Source of the DNA: Labedella endophytica
GTDB lineage: Bacteria > Actinomycetota > Actinomycetes > Actinomycetales > Microbacteriaceae
Reading direction: 5' to 3'
NCBI RefSeq assembly: GCF_003990045.1
Contig: NZ_RZGZ01000002.1
Location: forward strand, 868,001-932,000
DNA: 64,000 nucleotides
The notes under the pieces are model-generated. The model ran no database searches and was not told where the DNA came from. It saw only the letters and a list, made by a program, of their open reading frames with translations. Shown piece by piece: positions 51,350 through 58,849 of this stretch; position 1 is the stretch's first letter, and each line of letters starts with the position of its first letter. The position numbers were made by a program, and so were the translations under genes.

Positions 51350-54300
51350 TCAGCCGATGGCGTTCCGGCGCCGGCTGAACCAGGCGCCCGCACCTCCCAC
51401 GAGGAGCAGCAGTGCTGCCAGGAGGCCCAGTCCCGCCGCGTCGGAGCCCGTCACCGCGAGTCCCGACGTGTAGGTGAAGCCACCGGAGAGCGTCGCCGAA
51501 CCGCACTCGGTGGATCCGACGACGGTCACGTCGACCGATCCGGATCCGGCTGGGCTGACCGCGCGGATCTCCGTGTCACTGATCACCGTGACGCTCCGAG
51601 CCGGCGTGTTCCCGAAGAGGACCGCGGTCGCTCCGGTGAAGCACGAGCCGGTGATCGTCACCGTCGTCCCGCCGGAGGACGGTCCGCGCGGCGGCGTCAC
51701 GACGTCCACATCGGTGCCGTCCGGGTCCTCGGGATCGATCGGGCCGGGGACGTCCTCACCGAAGTAGGTGAAGTCGACCGGCTCAGACGAGCCATCGGGA
51801 TCGATGACCACGAGGTCCACCGTGCCCACGGGGTGGGCGGGCGAGTAGACCGTGATGACCTCGTCGCTGATGATCGCGAAGGGCTGGAAGGTCCCCTCCG
51901 GCAGGGCGGTCGGGTCGTTCAGACCGGTCCCCTCGATACCGTCGAAGGTCACCGCGGTGGCGTCCCCGAGGCCCTCACCCGTGATCGTCACGAGCGTGCC
52001 GCCCGCGACCGGGCCGCGGTCGGGGGTGATCGACGTGACGACGGGAGGTGCGGTGTACAGGTAACCGTCCGGCAGGACGGCCGGTCCGTCGACCGCGCAC
52101 TCGCCGAAGCCCGTGACCGTGACGTCGACGGCACCCGCGACCGTGCCGGCCGGGACGACCGCCGTGATCTCGGTGTCGCTGACGACCACGAAGTCGGCCG
52201 GGACTCCACCGAACTCGACGCGCGTCACGCCCGTGAAGCACGAACCGGTGATGGTGACCTCCTCGCCACCGGCCAGCGGCCCCTCCGACGGGTCGACGGC
52301 ATCGACCGTCGTCACGTCGAAGAACGTGAAGTCGGCGGGGGCCGACGGGCCGTCGAACGTGATGAGCGTGACCGGAACGGTTCCCGCTGCGTGCTCCGGC
52401 GTGATCACGAGGATCTCGGTGTCGCTCACGATCTCGATGAACGGAGCGGACTCGCCGTCGATCAGCACGTCGATCACGTCGTCGAAGCCCTCACCGGTGA
52501 TGGTGATCTCCGTGCCGCCCGTGACGGGGCCGCGGTCGGGGTCGAGGGACTCGATGACGGGCGCACCCTCCGGTACGAACGTGAAGGCGTCCTCCGCCGT
52601 CGCTCCGCCGCATGCCGTGGGGTTCACGACGGTCACGTCCACGATGCCGGTTCCGGCCGGGGTGACGACCGTGAGGAGGCCGTCGTCCACGACGGTGAGA
52701 CCGGTTCCCGGCACACCCCCGAAGAGCACCTCGGAGGTCCCGGTGAAGCAGGAACCCTCGATCGTGACGAGCGTGCCACCCTCCTCGGCGCCCGCGTTCG
52801 GGGTCACGGTCTCGATGACCGTCACCGCGACGTAGGTGAACTCCGCCGGGTCGCTCGCGCCACCCGGTCCCGTGACGATCACGTCGACGGGCCCGACGGC
52901 GTGCGGCGGGGTGACCGCCGTGATCTCCGTGTCGCTCACGACCGTGTACTCGGCCGCGGGCTCTCCGTCGAAGGTGACGCCCTCGGTGCCGGTCACGTCG
53001 AGGAAGTCCTCGCCCGTGATCGTGACCGTCGTGCCGCCCGTGACGGGTCCCTCGATGGGCTCGAGGCCGGAGATGCTCGGCGCCGCGAGGTACTCGTAGC
53101 CGTCGGGGATCGTGCCCGGTCCGTCGTCGCCACCCTCGGCGCAGTCGCCGGCGCCGACGACCGTGATGTCCACGAGGCCGGGCGTGCCGGCCGGCGCGAC
53201 GGCCGTGATCTCCGTGTCGCTCACGACGGTGAAGCTCGTCGCGGGGGTGTCGCCGAAGAGCACGGCGGTCGCTCCCGTGAAGCACGAGCCCGTGATGGTC
53301 ACGGTGTTGCCTCCCGCTTCCGGTCCCGCCTCGGGGTCCACCTCCTCGATCGTCGTGACGTCGAAGTAGGTGAAGTCGGAGGGAGCCGAGGCTCCCACGT
53401 CGGTCACGACCTGCACGTTGACGGTCTCCGGCGCGTGCGCTGGAGTGACGAACACGAGCTCCGTGTCGCTCACGATCGTGACGTCGGCCTCCGGCACGGC
53501 GACACCGTCCACGAGGACCTCCTCCGCGTCGTCGAACCCGGCGCCCGTGACGGTCACCTCGGTGCCGCCGACGGACGGGCCGCGGTCGGGCTCGAGGGCG
53601 TCGATGGTGGCCGCGCCGTCCGGCACGAAGGTGAAGGCGTCCTCGATGGTCCCGTCGCCGCACTCCGTCGGGTTCACGACCGTGACATCGACCGTGCCGA
53701 CCCCGGCGGGCGTCGTCGCGGTGATCTCGGTGTCGCTCACGACGGTGATGCTCGCCGCGGAGGTGTCCCCGAAGAGAACGTCCGTGGCTCCCGTGAAGCA
53801 GGAACCCGTGATGGTCACGACCGTGCCGCCGTCCTCGTCGCCCGCGTTCGGTGCGACGTCGTCGATCTCGGCGACCGGGTAGTACTCGAAGTCGCCGGGT
53901 TCGGAAACGCCGGACGGCGCCGTCACGACCACGTCGACGACGCCGGGGACGTCGCCCGCCGGGGTCGTCACGGTGATCTCCGTGTCGCTCACGACGACCA
54001 GGTCCGTCCCGGGCACTCCGCCGAAGGTGACCTCGGTCGCGTCGGTGAAGCCGGTGCCCGTGATCGTCACCTCGGTGCCGCCCGTGACGGGTCCGCGCTC
54101 GGGGTCGAGTTCGGTGACGAGCGGAGCCGCGAGGTACTCGAAGCCGTCCGGCAGCGTGCCCGGGCCATCCTCGCCTCCGAGCCCGCACTCGCCCGCACCG
54201 ACGACCGTGACGTCCACGCTGCCGACGGCGATGCTGGCCGGCGCTGTCGCGGTGATGACGGTGTCGCTGACCACGACCACGTCGGTCGCGGGGACGTCGC

Positions 54301-57300
54301 CGAAGAGCACGGCGGTCGCATCGGTGAAGCAGGAACCGATGATCGTCACCCCGGTGCCGCCCGCGAGCGGTCCCTCATCGGGGGTGACCGTGTCCACGGT
54401 CGTGACGCCCACGTAGGTGAAGTCGAGCGGAGCCGAGGCGCCTCCCGCGTTCGTCACGACGACGTCGACCGTCTCCGGTGCATGCGGCGGGGTCACGAGG
54501 GTGATCTCGGTGTCGTCCACGATCGTGAAGCCGACCTCTTCGCCGTCGATCGTGACCGACGTGGTCGAGTCGAGACCCGTACCCGTGATCGTCACGGCGG
54601 TGCCGCCCACCTCCGGTCCCCGGTCGGGGTCGATGGCGGTGAGGACAGGAGCGCCCTCCGGCACGTAGGTAAATGCGTCCTCGAGCGTCGCGTCGCCGCA
54701 CTCGCCCGGGTTCACCACGGTCACGTCGACCGTGCCGATACCCGCGGGGGTGACGGCCGTGATGGTGCCGTCGTCCACGACCACGACGTCGGTCGCCGGC
54801 TCGTCACCGAAGAGGACGCCCGTGGCACCCGTGAAGCACGAACCCGTGATCGTCACGGTCTCGCCTCCCGGCTCCTCGCCGGACGCCGGCGTCACCGCGG
54901 TGATCTCGGCGACGGCGAAGTAGGTGAATTCACCGGGCTCCGACGCGCCACCGCCCGCGAAGACGACGACCTGCACGGGACCAGGGGCCGCCGCACTCGG
55001 GGTCGTCACGGTGATCTCGGTGTCGCTCACGACGGTGAGCTCGGTGCCCGCGAAACCACCGAAGAGGACGGTCGTCGTGCCGGTGAAGCCGGTGCCGGTG
55101 ATGGTGACCTCGGTGCCGCCCGTGACGGGTCCGCGCTCGGGGTCGAGCGCGGCGATGGCCGGGGCGTCGAGGTAGGTGTAGCCGCCCGGAAGGGTCGCGT
55201 CGCCGCATTCCCCACCGCCGATCACCGTGACGTCGACCGCACCGGCGGTGACGCCCGCGGGAACGAGCACGGTGATCTCCGTGTCGCTCACGACCGAGAA
55301 GACCGTCGCGGGAACGTCGCCGAAGAGCACGCCCGTGGCGCCCGTGAAGCAGGAGCCCGTGATCGTCACGACCGAACCGCCCGCGAGCGGACCCTCGTCG
55401 GGATCGACCTCGTCGACCTCGGCGGTCGCGAAGTAGGTGAAGTCGAGCGGAGCCGACGGACCGACCTCGTTGGTGACGATCACGTCCACCGTCTCCGGCG
55501 CGTGCGGCGGAGTGGTGAAGGTGAGCTCGGTGTCGCTCACGACGTCGAAGTCGGCCTCGATGCCGTCGACCGTGACGCTCGTGGTGCCGTCGAAGTCCGT
55601 TCCCGTGACGATGACGAGAGTGTCGCCGCCCTCCGGTCCGCGGTCCGGGTCGAGCTCGGTGAGCGTCGGGGCGACCGGTGGGAGGTACTCGAAGCCGTCC
55701 TCGAGCGCGCCGTCGCCGGCCTCACCCGGGTTGAGGACCACGACGTCGACGGTGCCGACGCCGGCGGGGGTGACGGCCGTGATGGTCTCGTCGTCCACGA
55801 CGACGAACTCGGTGGCCGGGACACCATCGAAGGTCACGCCGGTGGCGCCGGTGAAGGCGTCGCCCGTGATCGTGACGGCGGTGCCGCCGGCCTCGTCACC
55901 CGTCTCCGGGTCGATGGCCGTGACAACCGTCACGGGGAAGTACTCGAAGGGCAGCGCGGCGGAGGACCCGACGGGCGACGTCACGACGACGTCGACGGTG
56001 CCGGGGCCGCCGGCCGGGGACGTCACGGTGATCTCAGTGTCGCTCACGACGACCAGTTCCGTACCGGGCTCACCACCGAAGGTGACCTCGGTGACGCCGG
56101 TGAAGCCGGTGCCCGTGATCGTCACCTCGGTGCCGCCCGTGACCGGGCCGCGGTCGGGGTCGAGCTCGGTGGTGGCGGGCACGGCGAGGTAGCTGAAGCC
56201 GTCCGGAAGCGTTCCGGGGCCGTCGGGACCGCCGTCTGCGCAGTCGCCGGCGCCCACGACGGTCACATCGACCGCGCCGATGGCGTCGCCCGCCGGCGTG
56301 ACGGCGGTGATCTCGGTGTCGCTCACGACCGTGAAGGACGTGGCGGACTCGTCGCCGAAGAGCACGTCGGTCGCGCCGGTGAAGCACGATCCCGTGATGG
56401 TCACATCCGTGCCGCCCGCGATCGGGCCGGCCTCGGGATCGATCGCGTCGACCGCGGTCACGGCGTAGTACTCGAAGTCGGCGGGAGCGGACGCGCCCAC
56501 GTCGGTGACGACCTGGACGCCGACCGTCGCGGGCACGTGGGGCGGGGAGACCGCGAGGATCTCGGTGTCGCTGATGATGTCGAAGTCGGCGGCGGGCTCG
56601 CCGTCGAAGAGGACCTCTTCGGTGTCGTCGAAACCGGAGCCGGTGATCGTCACCTCGGTGCCGCCCACCTCCGGGCCGCGGTCGGGGTCGATCCCGTCGA
56701 TGACGGCGGCGCCGTCGGGCACGAACGTGAAGGCGTCCTCGAGCGTCCCGTCACCGCACTCGGTGGGGTTCTGCACGGTCACGTCGACGGTGCCCTCACC
56801 GGCCGGCGAGATCACCGTGATGGTGGTGTCGTCCACGACCTCGAACTCGGTGCCCGGCGTGGTTCCGAAGAGCACGCCGGTGGCACCGGTGAAGCAGCTG
56901 CCGGTGATCGTGACGAGGGTTCCGCCGTCCTCGTCGCCGAAGCCGGGGTCGATCCCGGTGACCTCGGTGAGCGGGAAGAACGTGAACTCGCCCGGGGTGG
57001 AGACGCCGTCGGGGTTCGTGATCGTCACGTCGACGGTCGCGGGGGCGTGCGGCGGCGTGACGGCGGTGATCTCGGTGTCGCTCACGACCGTGTAGCTCGC
57101 GGCGGGGTCGCCGTCGAAGAGCACGGCGTCCGCGCCGGCGACGTCCTCGAAGCCGGTGCCCGTGATGGTCACCTCTGTCCCGCCGGTCACCGGTCCCCTG
57201 TCGGGGTCGATCGTGCCGATGGTCGGCACGGCGAGCGGCACGGCCGTGACGGTCGCCGAGGCGAGGTTCAGCGTGACGACGTCGGCGAGGCCAGGAAGGA

Positions 57301-58849
57301 CCTCGACGCGCACGGCCGTCTGGGTGAACGAGGCCGCGTCGGTGCCCGCAGGGTCGCGGAAGGCGCCCGGCTGCTCCTGCACGTTGAGCGTGACGCTCAC
57401 GACATCGTTCACGAGGTCGAGGAGCGGCGAGAGCGCCGTTACGGCGGTCGTGGCGACGGCGGTGACTGCCACCTCGAGGCCGTCGAGGTCGACGGCGGTG
57501 GCGACCACGGGAGCGAGGACGTCCGGCACGAGCGTGTCGGTGACGAGCGTCGTGAGCGGGGTCAGCAGGGTCCCGACCGGGAGACCGACGAGGCTCGTGC
57601 CCGCGAGATCCACGTCGGGGGCGGGCTGGCCGTCGTTGCCGAGGAAGCCTCCGAGCGAACCGGTGATCGTCGTGTTCACCACGCCGATTCCACCGACGAT
57701 GGGGAGCGAGGCGTCGGCGTTGATCGTGATCGCGAGGGTCGTCGAGTTGAGGACGTCGGTCACCGCGTCGACGAGCGCCTCCGGCAGCTGGTCCGTGAGG
57801 ATGTCGCTGATCGCTGCGGTGATCTGAGCGTTGATGGCCGGGTCGTCCAGCAGCTGCGTGTTCGGGGCGAGGTCGTTGAGCGCGTACAGCTCGTCGAGGT
57901 CGATGAGGATCTCGCCCGTACCGAGGTCGATGGTGACCGGCCCGCTCACGAAGGCGTCGGCGGTCGCCGCATCGAGCGCGGTTCCGAGGTCGACGTTCAG
58001 CGTGGAGGTGACCTCCGCGTTCGACAGCGTGACGAGGCCGAGGAGAGTCCGCAGGAGGGCCTGGATCGGCGCGATCAGCTGCGCGCTCGTGTCTGAGATG
58101 GCACCGTCGGTGCCCGCGATGGCGTTCACGGTGGCGCTCGTGTCGGCGAGCGTGCCGTCGAGTCCCGTCGTGAGGTCCCCGAGAGCGGGGCTCTGCAGAC
58201 GGAGCACTCCGCTCGCGACCTGGTAGTCGCTCGTCGTCGTCACGTCCGAGCCGCGTGAGGATTCCGCACGCGCGGACAGCGCTCCGAGCTCGAGGCTCAG
58301 TGTGCTGATGAGGTCGTCGGCCGCGGCGGCGTCGAGCACCGGCCCGAGATCGAGGGTCGTCTGCTGCTCGAGGGAACCGTTGCCGGCGACGATCGCGCCG
58401 GTGCCCGTGATGAGCCCGGACGCCGCGACGGCGCCGTCGACACCGGTCTCCGCGTACTGCCCGGTCGCTCCGAGGTCGAGGACATCGTTGCCTCCGAAGA
58501 GCTGGAGGCCGAGCCCGATGTCGATGAGGCTCAACACGGTCACGTCGAGCGGCGCGTTCTCCGCGCCGCCCGGCGTGAACTGCGAGTACGGGCCGTCGAG
58601 TTCGGCGATGTCGTCCAGATCGACGAGACCGTCGCCGCTCAGGAACAAGGCCTCCGCTTGTGCGCGGTCGCCGGGAGCCGCCACGGCGGCCCCTGCTCCC
58701 GCAGCGGCGAAGAGAGTCGCCACCACTGTCGCGGAGAGCACCCGGAACCATGTCCTGGCCGGGTGCTTCCTGTCTCTGTCCTTCTGGGTTGACGTCCGTG
58801 CGGCATCGTCCGATTGTCCGATTTTCGCCGCGCTCGACCGATAGTCCAT
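51350..58849 (-). CDS. Giant sortase-anchored surface protein with 22 TIG/IPT repeats
   Basis: This 2499-residue protein has a signal peptide (about residues 29-58; hydrophobic VLSATVVATLFAAAGAGAAV, cleavage near AVA-AP). A domain of about 480 residues (about 60-540) with repeated Val/Thr/Asp-rich beta segments resembles choice-of-anchor-G-type proteins. Then come 22 immunoglobulin-like TIG repeats (about 541-2456, about 87 residues each; PDRGPVTGGTEVTITG type). It ends in LAVTG, a membrane helix and FSRRRNAIG, a class E-type sortase signal. Even-numbered repeats carry a Cys pair (GSCFTG...ECGD type); odd ones do not. Four-repeat superunits recur every roughly 345 residues. No enzyme motif was found; it is likely a cell-wall adhesin or stalk. 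The ATG is preceded by GAGGGGAAAACACA. Confidence 0.88.
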   Translation of the reverse strand: MDYRSSAAKIGQSDDAARTSTQKDRDRKHPARTWFRVLSATVVATLFAAAGAGAAVAAPGDRAQAEALFLSGDGLVDLDDIAELDGPYSQFTPGGAENAPLDVTVLSLIDIGLGLQLFGGNDVLDLGATGQYAETGVDGAVAASGLITGTGAIVAGNGSLEQQTTLDLGPVLDAAAADDLISTLSLELGALSARAESSRGSDVTTTSDYQVASGVLRLQSPALGDLTTGLDGTLADTSATVNAIAGTDGAISDTSAQLIAPIQALLRTLLGLVTLSNAEVTSTLNVDLGTALDAATADAFVSGPVTIDLGTGEILIDLDELYALNDLAPNTQLLDDPAINAQITAAISDILTDQLPEALVDAVTDVLNSTTLAITINADASLPIVGGIGVVNTTITGSLGGFLGNDGQPAPDVDLAGTSLVGLPVGTLLTPLTTLVTDTLVPDVLAPVVATAVDLDGLEVAVTAVATTAVTALSPLLDLVNDVVSVTLNVQEQPGAFRDPAGTDAASFTQTAVRVEVLPGLADVVTLNLASATVTAVPLAVPTIGTIDPDRGPVTGGTEVTITGTGFEDVAGADAVLFDGDPAASYTVVSDTEITAVTPPHAPATVDVTITNPDGVSTPGEFTFFPLTEVTGIDPGFGDEDGGTLVTITGSCFTGATGVLFGTTPGTEFEVVDDTTITVISPAGEGTVDVTVQNPTECGDGTLEDAFTFVPDGAAVIDGIDPDRGPEVGGTEVTITGSGFDDTEEVLFDGEPAADFDIISDTEILAVSPPHVPATVGVQVVTDVGASAPADFEYYAVTAVDAIDPEAGPIAGGTDVTITGSCFTGATDVLFGDESATSFTVVSDTEITAVTPAGDAIGAVDVTVVGAGDCADGGPDGPGTLPDGFSYLAVPATTELDPDRGPVTGGTEVTITGTGFTGVTEVTFGGEPGTELVVVSDTEITVTSPAGGPGTVDVVVTSPVGSSAALPFEYFPVTVVTAIDPETGDEAGGTAVTITGDAFTGATGVTFDGVPATEFVVVDDETITAVTPAGVGTVDVVVLNPGEAGDGALEDGFEYLPPVAPTLTELDPDRGPEGGDTLVIVTGTDFDGTTSVTVDGIEADFDVVSDTELTFTTPPHAPETVDVIVTNEVGPSAPLDFTYFATAEVDEVDPDEGPLAGGSVVTITGSCFTGATGVLFGDVPATVFSVVSDTEITVLVPAGVTAGAVDVTVIGGGECGDATLPGGYTYLDAPAIAALDPERGPVTGGTEVTITGTGFTGTTTVLFGGFAGTELTVVSDTEITVTTPSAAAPGPVQVVVFAGGGASEPGEFTYFAVAEITAVTPASGEEPGGETVTITGSCFTGATGVLFGDEPATDVVVVDDGTITAVTPAGIGTVDVTVVNPGECGDATLEDAFTYVPEGAPVLTAIDPDRGPEVGGTAVTITGTGLDSTTSVTIDGEEVGFTIVDDTEITLVTPPHAPETVDVVVTNAGGASAPLDFTYVGVTTVDTVTPDEGPLAGGTGVTIIGSCFTDATAVLFGDVPATDVVVVSDTVITATAPASIAVGSVDVTVVGAGECGLGGEDGPGTLPDGFEYLAAPLVTELDPERGPVTGGTEVTITGTGFTDATEVTFGGVPGTDLVVVSDTEITVTTPAGDVPGVVDVVVTAPSGVSEPGDFEYYPVAEIDDVAPNAGDEDGGTVVTITGSCFTGATDVLFGDTSAASITVVSDTEITATTPAGVGTVDVTVVNPTECGDGTIEDAFTFVPDGAATIDALEPDRGPSVGGTEVTVTGAGFDDAEEVLVDGVAVPEADVTIVSDTELVFVTPAHAPETVNVQVVTDVGASAPSDFTYFDVTTIEEVDPEAGPEAGGNTVTITGSCFTGATAVLFGDTPATSFTVVSDTEITAVAPAGTPGLVDITVVGAGDCAEGGDDGPGTIPDGYEYLAAPSISGLEPIEGPVTGGTTVTITGEDFLDVTGTEGVTFDGEPAAEYTVVSDTEITAVTPPHAVGPVDVIVTGPGGASDPAEFTYVAVTVIETVTPNAGAEEGGTLVTIEGSCFTGTSEVLFGGVPGTGLTVVDDGLLTVVTPAGTGIVDVTVVNPTACGGATAEDAFTFVPEGAPVIESLDPDRGPVTGGTEITITGEGFDDVIDVLIDGESAPFIEIVSDTEILVITPEHAAGTVPVTLITFDGPSAPADFTFFDVTTVDAVDPSEGPLAGGEEVTITGSCFTGVTRVEFGGVPADFVVVSDTEITAVVPAGTVAGAVDVTVTGFGECAVDGPAVLPDGYLYTAPPVVTSITPDRGPVAGGTLVTITGEGLGDATAVTFDGIEGTGLNDPTALPEGTFQPFAIISDEVITVYSPAHPVGTVDLVVIDPDGSSEPVDFTYFGEDVPGPIDPEDPDGTDVDVVTPPRGPSSGGTTVTITGSCFTGATAVLFGNTPARSVTVISDTEIRAVSPAGSGSVDVTVVGSTECGSATLSGGFTYTSGLAVTGSDAAGLGLLAALLLLVGGAGAWFSRRRNAIG
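51480..57228 (-). repeat. Coding tandem array of 22 TIG modules in 4-module superunits
   Basis: At DNA level the odd modules that open each superunit share a strongly conserved segment encoding DPDRGPVTGGTEVTITG. It is found near 57190, 56145, 55125, 54090, 53045 and 52000, giving a super-period of about 1.02-1.05 kb. Within a superunit the modules alternate between Cys-free and Cys-pair types, ending in GTVDVTVVNPTECGDG or GAVDVTVVGAGDCA forms. Confidence 0.85.

Follow-up and report, generated by a model that had tools for sequence, protein, structure and literature searches.

Long surface stalks in which Ig-like domains are internally cross-linked by covalent bonds, some of them disulfides, have been described in the actinobacterial adhesins FimA and FimP of Actinomyces and in the giant adhesin of Mobiluncus (PMC10619420). 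Most of the links in these proteins are isopeptide and ester bonds, and their disulfide connects neighbouring strands within a single sheet. Bonds between loops of an Ig-like fold are known from camelid VHHs, about a quarter of which carry an extra bond between the CDR1 (B-C) and CDR3 (F-G) loops (PMC11509895). Also known are stalks made of IPT/TIG domains (PF01833, NF058597), exported disulfides in Actinobacteria, and choice-of-anchor G proteins (NF033766) provided with a sortase-type signal. The protein analyzed here belongs to a member of the Microbacteriaceae, Labedella endophytica, and is built of such elements; it is not a new system. The Cys-type TIG subtype that marks its stalk, for which no description was found in the literature searched, differs from each of them. 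Even-numbered repeats have a longer F-G loop than ordinary TIG domains and a pair of cysteines, one in the B-C and one in the F-G region. The predicted bond would join these loops in every second domain, in contrast to the strand-to-strand disulfide of the Mobiluncus and Actinomyces adhesins. Camelid VHHs feature the same B-C/F-G connection, but are unrelated by descent, and the bond there resides in a single antibody domain rather than in a tandem stalk. The protein is very probably a sortase-anchored choice-of-anchor G head carried by a stalk of 22 TIG domains, every second of which holds an intradomain disulfide between its first and second cysteine.

The window, the whole stretch of 64,000 nucleotides analyzed, contains at positions 51350-58849, on the minus strand, an open reading frame encoding a surface protein of 2,499 residues. 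It features, in order, a signal/TM segment, a choice-of-anchor G head (aa 58-541; 57227-58678, minus strand), an array of 22 TIG/IPT repeats (aa 542-2466; 51452-57226, minus strand), delimited by Pfam PF01833 and by repeat alignment, and a sorting signal (51353-51463, minus strand). The head lacks cysteines, is modeled by AlphaFold2 with a pLDDT of 93, and matches NF033766 over aa 61-333 with 203 bits. The C-terminus (LAVTG...ALLLLVGGAGAWFSRRRNAIG) features the LAVTG motif, a hydrophobic, transmembrane stretch and the basic tail RRRNAIG; it matches NF058582 with 22.1 bits, under the 27-bit cut-off of that family. Four sortases are encoded elsewhere in the genome, and the protein thus qualifies as a sortase-anchored surface protein. 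Neighbouring genes are functionally unrelated, and encode a solute-binding protein, a LacI regulator, an isochorismatase-fold enzyme, a NUDIX enzyme, a ParA-like ATPase and a D-Ala-D-Ala carboxypeptidase.

The search for a known adhesive tip domain gave neither a Pfam match nor a confident PDB fold match for the head. Its model features long helices beside beta strands, and weak Foldseek matches (57227-58678, minus strand) include several lipid-binding folds of the BPI/LBP/SPLUNC type (E 0.025-0.9, probability <0.16); they offer at most a lead towards a TULIP-like lipid-binding head. Homologous heads, 43 of which were aligned, are fused in relatives to very different C-terminal stalks, some of which lack TIG repeats, as in the homologous loci L010, L014, L017, L019, L021, L024, L160 and others.

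The open reading frame contains 22 of the 23 PF01833 matches of the genome, and the domain is scored above the curated cut-off (E 7.4e-282). All 22 repeats match also the NCBIfam family CoaZ_rpt_PGGG (NF058597). The protein has exactly 20 cysteines, all encoded by TGC and all falling at two columns of the repeat alignment, two per repeat. Pairs mark 10 of the 11 even repeats, all encoded on the minus strand: repeat 2 (56708-56968, Cys652/Cys698), repeat 4 (56180-56458, Cys822/Cys870), repeat 8 (55163-55423, Cys1167/Cys1215), repeat 10 (54650-54910, Cys1338/Cys1384), repeat 12 (54125-54403, Cys1507/Cys1555), repeat 14 (53612-53872, Cys1684/Cys1730), repeat 16 (53081-53356, Cys1856/Cys1903), repeat 18 (52562-52822, Cys2034/Cys2080), repeat 20 (52046-52312, Cys2204/Cys2251), and repeat 22 (51452-51715, Cys2403/Cys2449). 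Repeat 6 (55670-55930, minus strand) is of the Cys type in sequence, but has alanines (Ala998/Ala1044) at both sites, each encoded by GCC and two substitutions away from TGC. The distribution claimed by the sequence-only reading, with paired cysteines in ten even repeats, Ala/Ala in repeat 6 and none in odd repeats, is therefore exact.

The second cysteine sits in an insertion of the F-G loop. In odd repeats, Gly or Asp occupies the first site and the second is absent altogether, the F-G loop being at least three residues shorter; repeat 6 retains the insertion. The two cysteines are separated by 45-48 residues in all pairs, and variations in repeat length are due to insertions beyond the second one. 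At profile column 57 (TPPH / TPAG), non-Cys repeats feature a conserved His in the loop ahead of strand F; Cys repeats have Gly, usually accompanied by a one-residue deletion.

The 11 even repeats show 67% mean column identity, and consist of two alternating subtypes, which superimpose a four-repeat period on the two-repeat period. Mean identity is 0.59-0.63 at offsets 4, 8, 12 and 16, about 0.55 at offsets 2, 6 and 10, and about 0.43 at odd offsets. Because of this double periodicity, the array probably grew by block duplication. Array length varies widely among congeners, as the homologous head of a sister species, L. phragmitis (L010), is followed by nine repeats only. Length variation and the four-repeat super-period suggest that block expansion is recent.

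Repeats 9 to 11 were modeled with AlphaFold2, from an alignment of 62 sequences taken from the window and the fetched loci (mean pLDDT 97.4, pTM 0.82). In the middle repeat of the model, strand B spans residues 102-108 and is followed by Cys109; strand F spans residues 143-150, and Cys155 is located in the loop preceding a strand which starts at residue 158. The model thus places the first cysteine at the end of strand B, in the B-C loop, and the second in the F-G loop. In Ig-like folds the B-C and F-G loops neighbour each other, at the chain-entry end of the domain. Strand topology in the model therefore puts both cysteines in neighbouring loops of one domain end, where they would be expected to lie within reach of a bond. 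Foldseek matched the model to IPT domains of plexin, MET and Bacteroides SGBP-B (E 1e-8 to 1e-13), the top solved structure being a plexin A1 IPT fragment (E 2e-13), which assigns the repeats to the Ig-like E-set fold. No solved structure with the same bond was recognised by the sequence profile. The sequence-only reading had called odd modules flexible; the notion finds no support in the model, as odd repeats are modeled as confidently as the Cys repeat.

Homologous loci came from profile searches of 400 genomes of the family and from scanning GTDB contigs; about 60 regions, none longer than 20 kb, were fetched. Every TIG repeat in the open frames of relatives was aligned to the profile of the 51350-58849 repeats. 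The word used in the contig scan contained a Cys, which biases the sample towards proteins with the first cysteine, but does not create its pairing with the second; profile searches had no Cys requirement. Among 699 complete repeats in 93 Microbacteriaceae proteins, 87 have both cysteines, none the first only, one the second only, and 611 neither. The lone second-only case (L064) is an artefact, as it lies in a disturbed tail adjoining an assembly gap. Given these counts, the pairing of the two sites is not due to chance. Twenty-five additional regions from relatives yielded neither a new Cys-pair protein of this type nor a half-pair. Frequent retention of a single cysteine in homologues had been indicated beforehand as the outcome that would speak against a bond, and no genuine half-pair occurs in the 699 repeats.

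Other cysteine pairs were met in TIG domains of the collection. A different matched pair (VTICG ... TPAC, profile columns 34 and 56) is found at aa 503 in L180, aa 519 in L185, aa 517 in L207 and aa 691 in L220 (open-frame coordinates), with both residues present in each protein. A plexin-like pair, at columns 38 and 51, coincides in L107 and L115 with cysteine positions of plexin-A1. By their sequences, TIG domains of Microbacteriaceae seem to have acquired staples in at least two different positions. TIG proteins rich in cysteines (about 30-40 per frame), but lacking the GxCF motif, were found in Planctomycetota (L101, L106) and in actinobacterial bins (L081, L085, L088, L072).

Most Cys repeats share descent, and joint losses, rather than the raw counts, are therefore the real test of the pairing. 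Repeats of the Cys type which lack cysteines were searched for with two profiles, one of Cys and one of non-Cys repeats, both with masked cysteines. Three were found: repeat 6 (+25 bits), and one each in L147 and L148 (+6 bits), from two species of one other genus, where Ala/Val occupy the two sites (aa 782). The orthologous repeat of the congener L150 (aa 835) has Cys/Cys. In a tree built with masked cysteines, repeat 6 falls inside the Cys group (support 81/85), in a main clade of 79 Cys rows, and the L147 and L148 repeats group with the Cys repeat of L150 (support 100/99). Masked score, retained F-G insertion and tree placement rule out that repeat 6 is an ancestral or odd-type unit. Two independent joint losses are thus set against zero single losses. 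If the sites were lost independently, finding three joint-loss repeats among 90, and no single loss, would have a probability of about 8.5e-6, or of 2.6e-4 when counted as two events of 89.

These figures bear on the view that co-occurrence reflects common descent alone, the subtype having arisen once and been copied, and the joint losses being due to chance. Much of the co-occurrence is indeed inherited, since Cys repeats mostly form one clade and the array expanded by duplication of four-repeat blocks, and only the joint losses count as independent tests. Two such losses and no single one, among 87 Cys-pair repeats which otherwise strongly diverged, are hardly accounted for by copying, and a few Cys-pair repeats sit outside the main clade. 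We leave to descent alone a small chance of being the whole explanation.

A bond is most likely formed within the repeat, according to sequence comparisons and the model. Relatives have one to five Cys-type TIG repeats each, and a single one was found in 14 open frames, some of which are truncated by contig ends. The protein in L129 includes 22 repeats in a frame of 2,402 residues, and has only two cysteines overall, both in the last repeat. Since proteins with a single Cys repeat exist, one of which has no other cysteine, an inter-repeat bond is not general. The intra-repeat disulfide proposed by the sequence-only reading hence gains from four observations: half-pairs are lacking, two joint losses occurred, the L129 protein has two cysteines only, and the loops holding the paired residues share one end of the modeled domain.

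Alternatively, the bond partners may be cysteines in other Cys repeats nearby or in separate molecules, so that domains or stalks would be cross-linked. The many copies, regularly spaced in the 51350-58849 protein, would allow ladder-like contacts, and in proteins with a single Cys repeat the bond may be intermolecular. Yet several relatives have a lone Cys repeat in a long array, no two Cys repeats adjoin, and bonds between repeats do not predict that both cysteines are lost within the same repeat; disulfides between repeats are unlikely in the light of the proteins with a single Cys repeat, and cross-linking overall is very improbable. The cysteines could also be metal or cofactor ligands, or reduced thiols, retained for binding. 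Two cysteines in neighbouring loops, as placed by the model, could hold a metal, and joint retention would follow as well. However, neither His nor additional Cys residues are conserved alongside, the column-57 His of non-Cys repeats being replaced by Gly, and Actinobacteria generally oxidise exported Cys pairs via MdbA/VKOR (PMC9974433). Binding is in our estimate the least probable of the explanations weighed here.

The same pathway is known to fold exported proteins of Actinobacteria, pilins included, and about 60% of the exported proteins in these bacteria have even numbers of cysteines (PMC9974433). The earlier statement that disulfides are less common in exported Gram-positive proteins accordingly holds for Firmicutes, but not for Actinobacteria, where they are ordinary (PMC9974433). 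DsbA- and VKOR-type genes, which the sequence-only reading had proposed to look for, are both present in the genome. One VKOR was identified (128.8 bits), with the catalytic cysteines in GCDFSVLVQC and CPWC, along with a thioredoxin-fold DsbA-like protein, which features a CPYC motif and a hydrophobic N-terminal segment; an MdbA/DsbA-VKOR system is therefore encoded. VKOR was found in 40 of 40 Microbacteriaceae genomes tested, including those without Cys-type stalks, and was hence to be expected here. It is a precondition of the bond rather than a special feature, and the idea that it specifically accompanies Cys-type stalks was discarded.

The intradomain bond would form after export, presumably through the DsbA-like/VKOR pathway of the organism. 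It would close a loop of about 46 residues, and staple the end of the domain facing the preceding repeat. The staple should protect the domain from unfolding and proteolysis, and reduce its stretch by about half, as pulling would free only about 40 residues of a domain of about 86; intervening repeats would be unstapled, and repeat 6 would have lost its staple as a pair. Going by camelid VHHs, linking the B-C and F-G loops may contribute little to stability (PMC11509895).

Cys repeats are variously arranged along the stalks of relatives, in patterns such as -C-C--C-C or --C----C--C-C-C, or as one Cys repeat at the end. Only the 51350-58849 protein and a few others alternate strictly. Of the alternation envisaged earlier, a succession of stapled and unstapled modules thus stands for this stalk, but is not general, as spacing varies in relatives, where Cys repeats are still never adjacent. 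Adjacent Cys repeats number 0 in 35 proteins, against 14.9 expected from within-protein shuffling; zero adjacency was reached in 0 of 20,000 shuffles, a figure which block duplication makes over-confident. Of the 84 linkers leading into a Cys repeat, 74 are 10 residues long, against 202 of 356 (57%) at other junctions (P 2e-8), a bias which suggests that stapled repeats are joined in a defined way to the unstapled ones preceding them.

Both non-adjacency in the 35 proteins and the bias towards 10-residue linkers are consistent with a tentative proposal, which we regard as rather doubtful: the Cys repeat may occur solely in second place within a rigid two-domain unit, with its stapled end packed on the preceding repeat. 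The linker would then be short and fixed, the stalk would be a chain of rigid dyads, and consecutive Cys repeats would be impossible. A search for an interface residue on the repeat preceding a Cys repeat found none in the comparison of the column-57 His, and this residue was dismissed as a conserved partner, being present in 66 of 85 repeats located before Cys repeats and in 192 of 224 elsewhere (P 0.12).

The protein provides a natural series in which the role of disulfides in a stalk may be followed, as ten stapled, one naturally unstapled and eleven unstapled related domains coexist in one polypeptide. Relatives extend the series with stalks featuring one to five stapled copies. The rule that Cys repeats are not adjacent is a testable statement on the way tandem Ig-like domains are joined.
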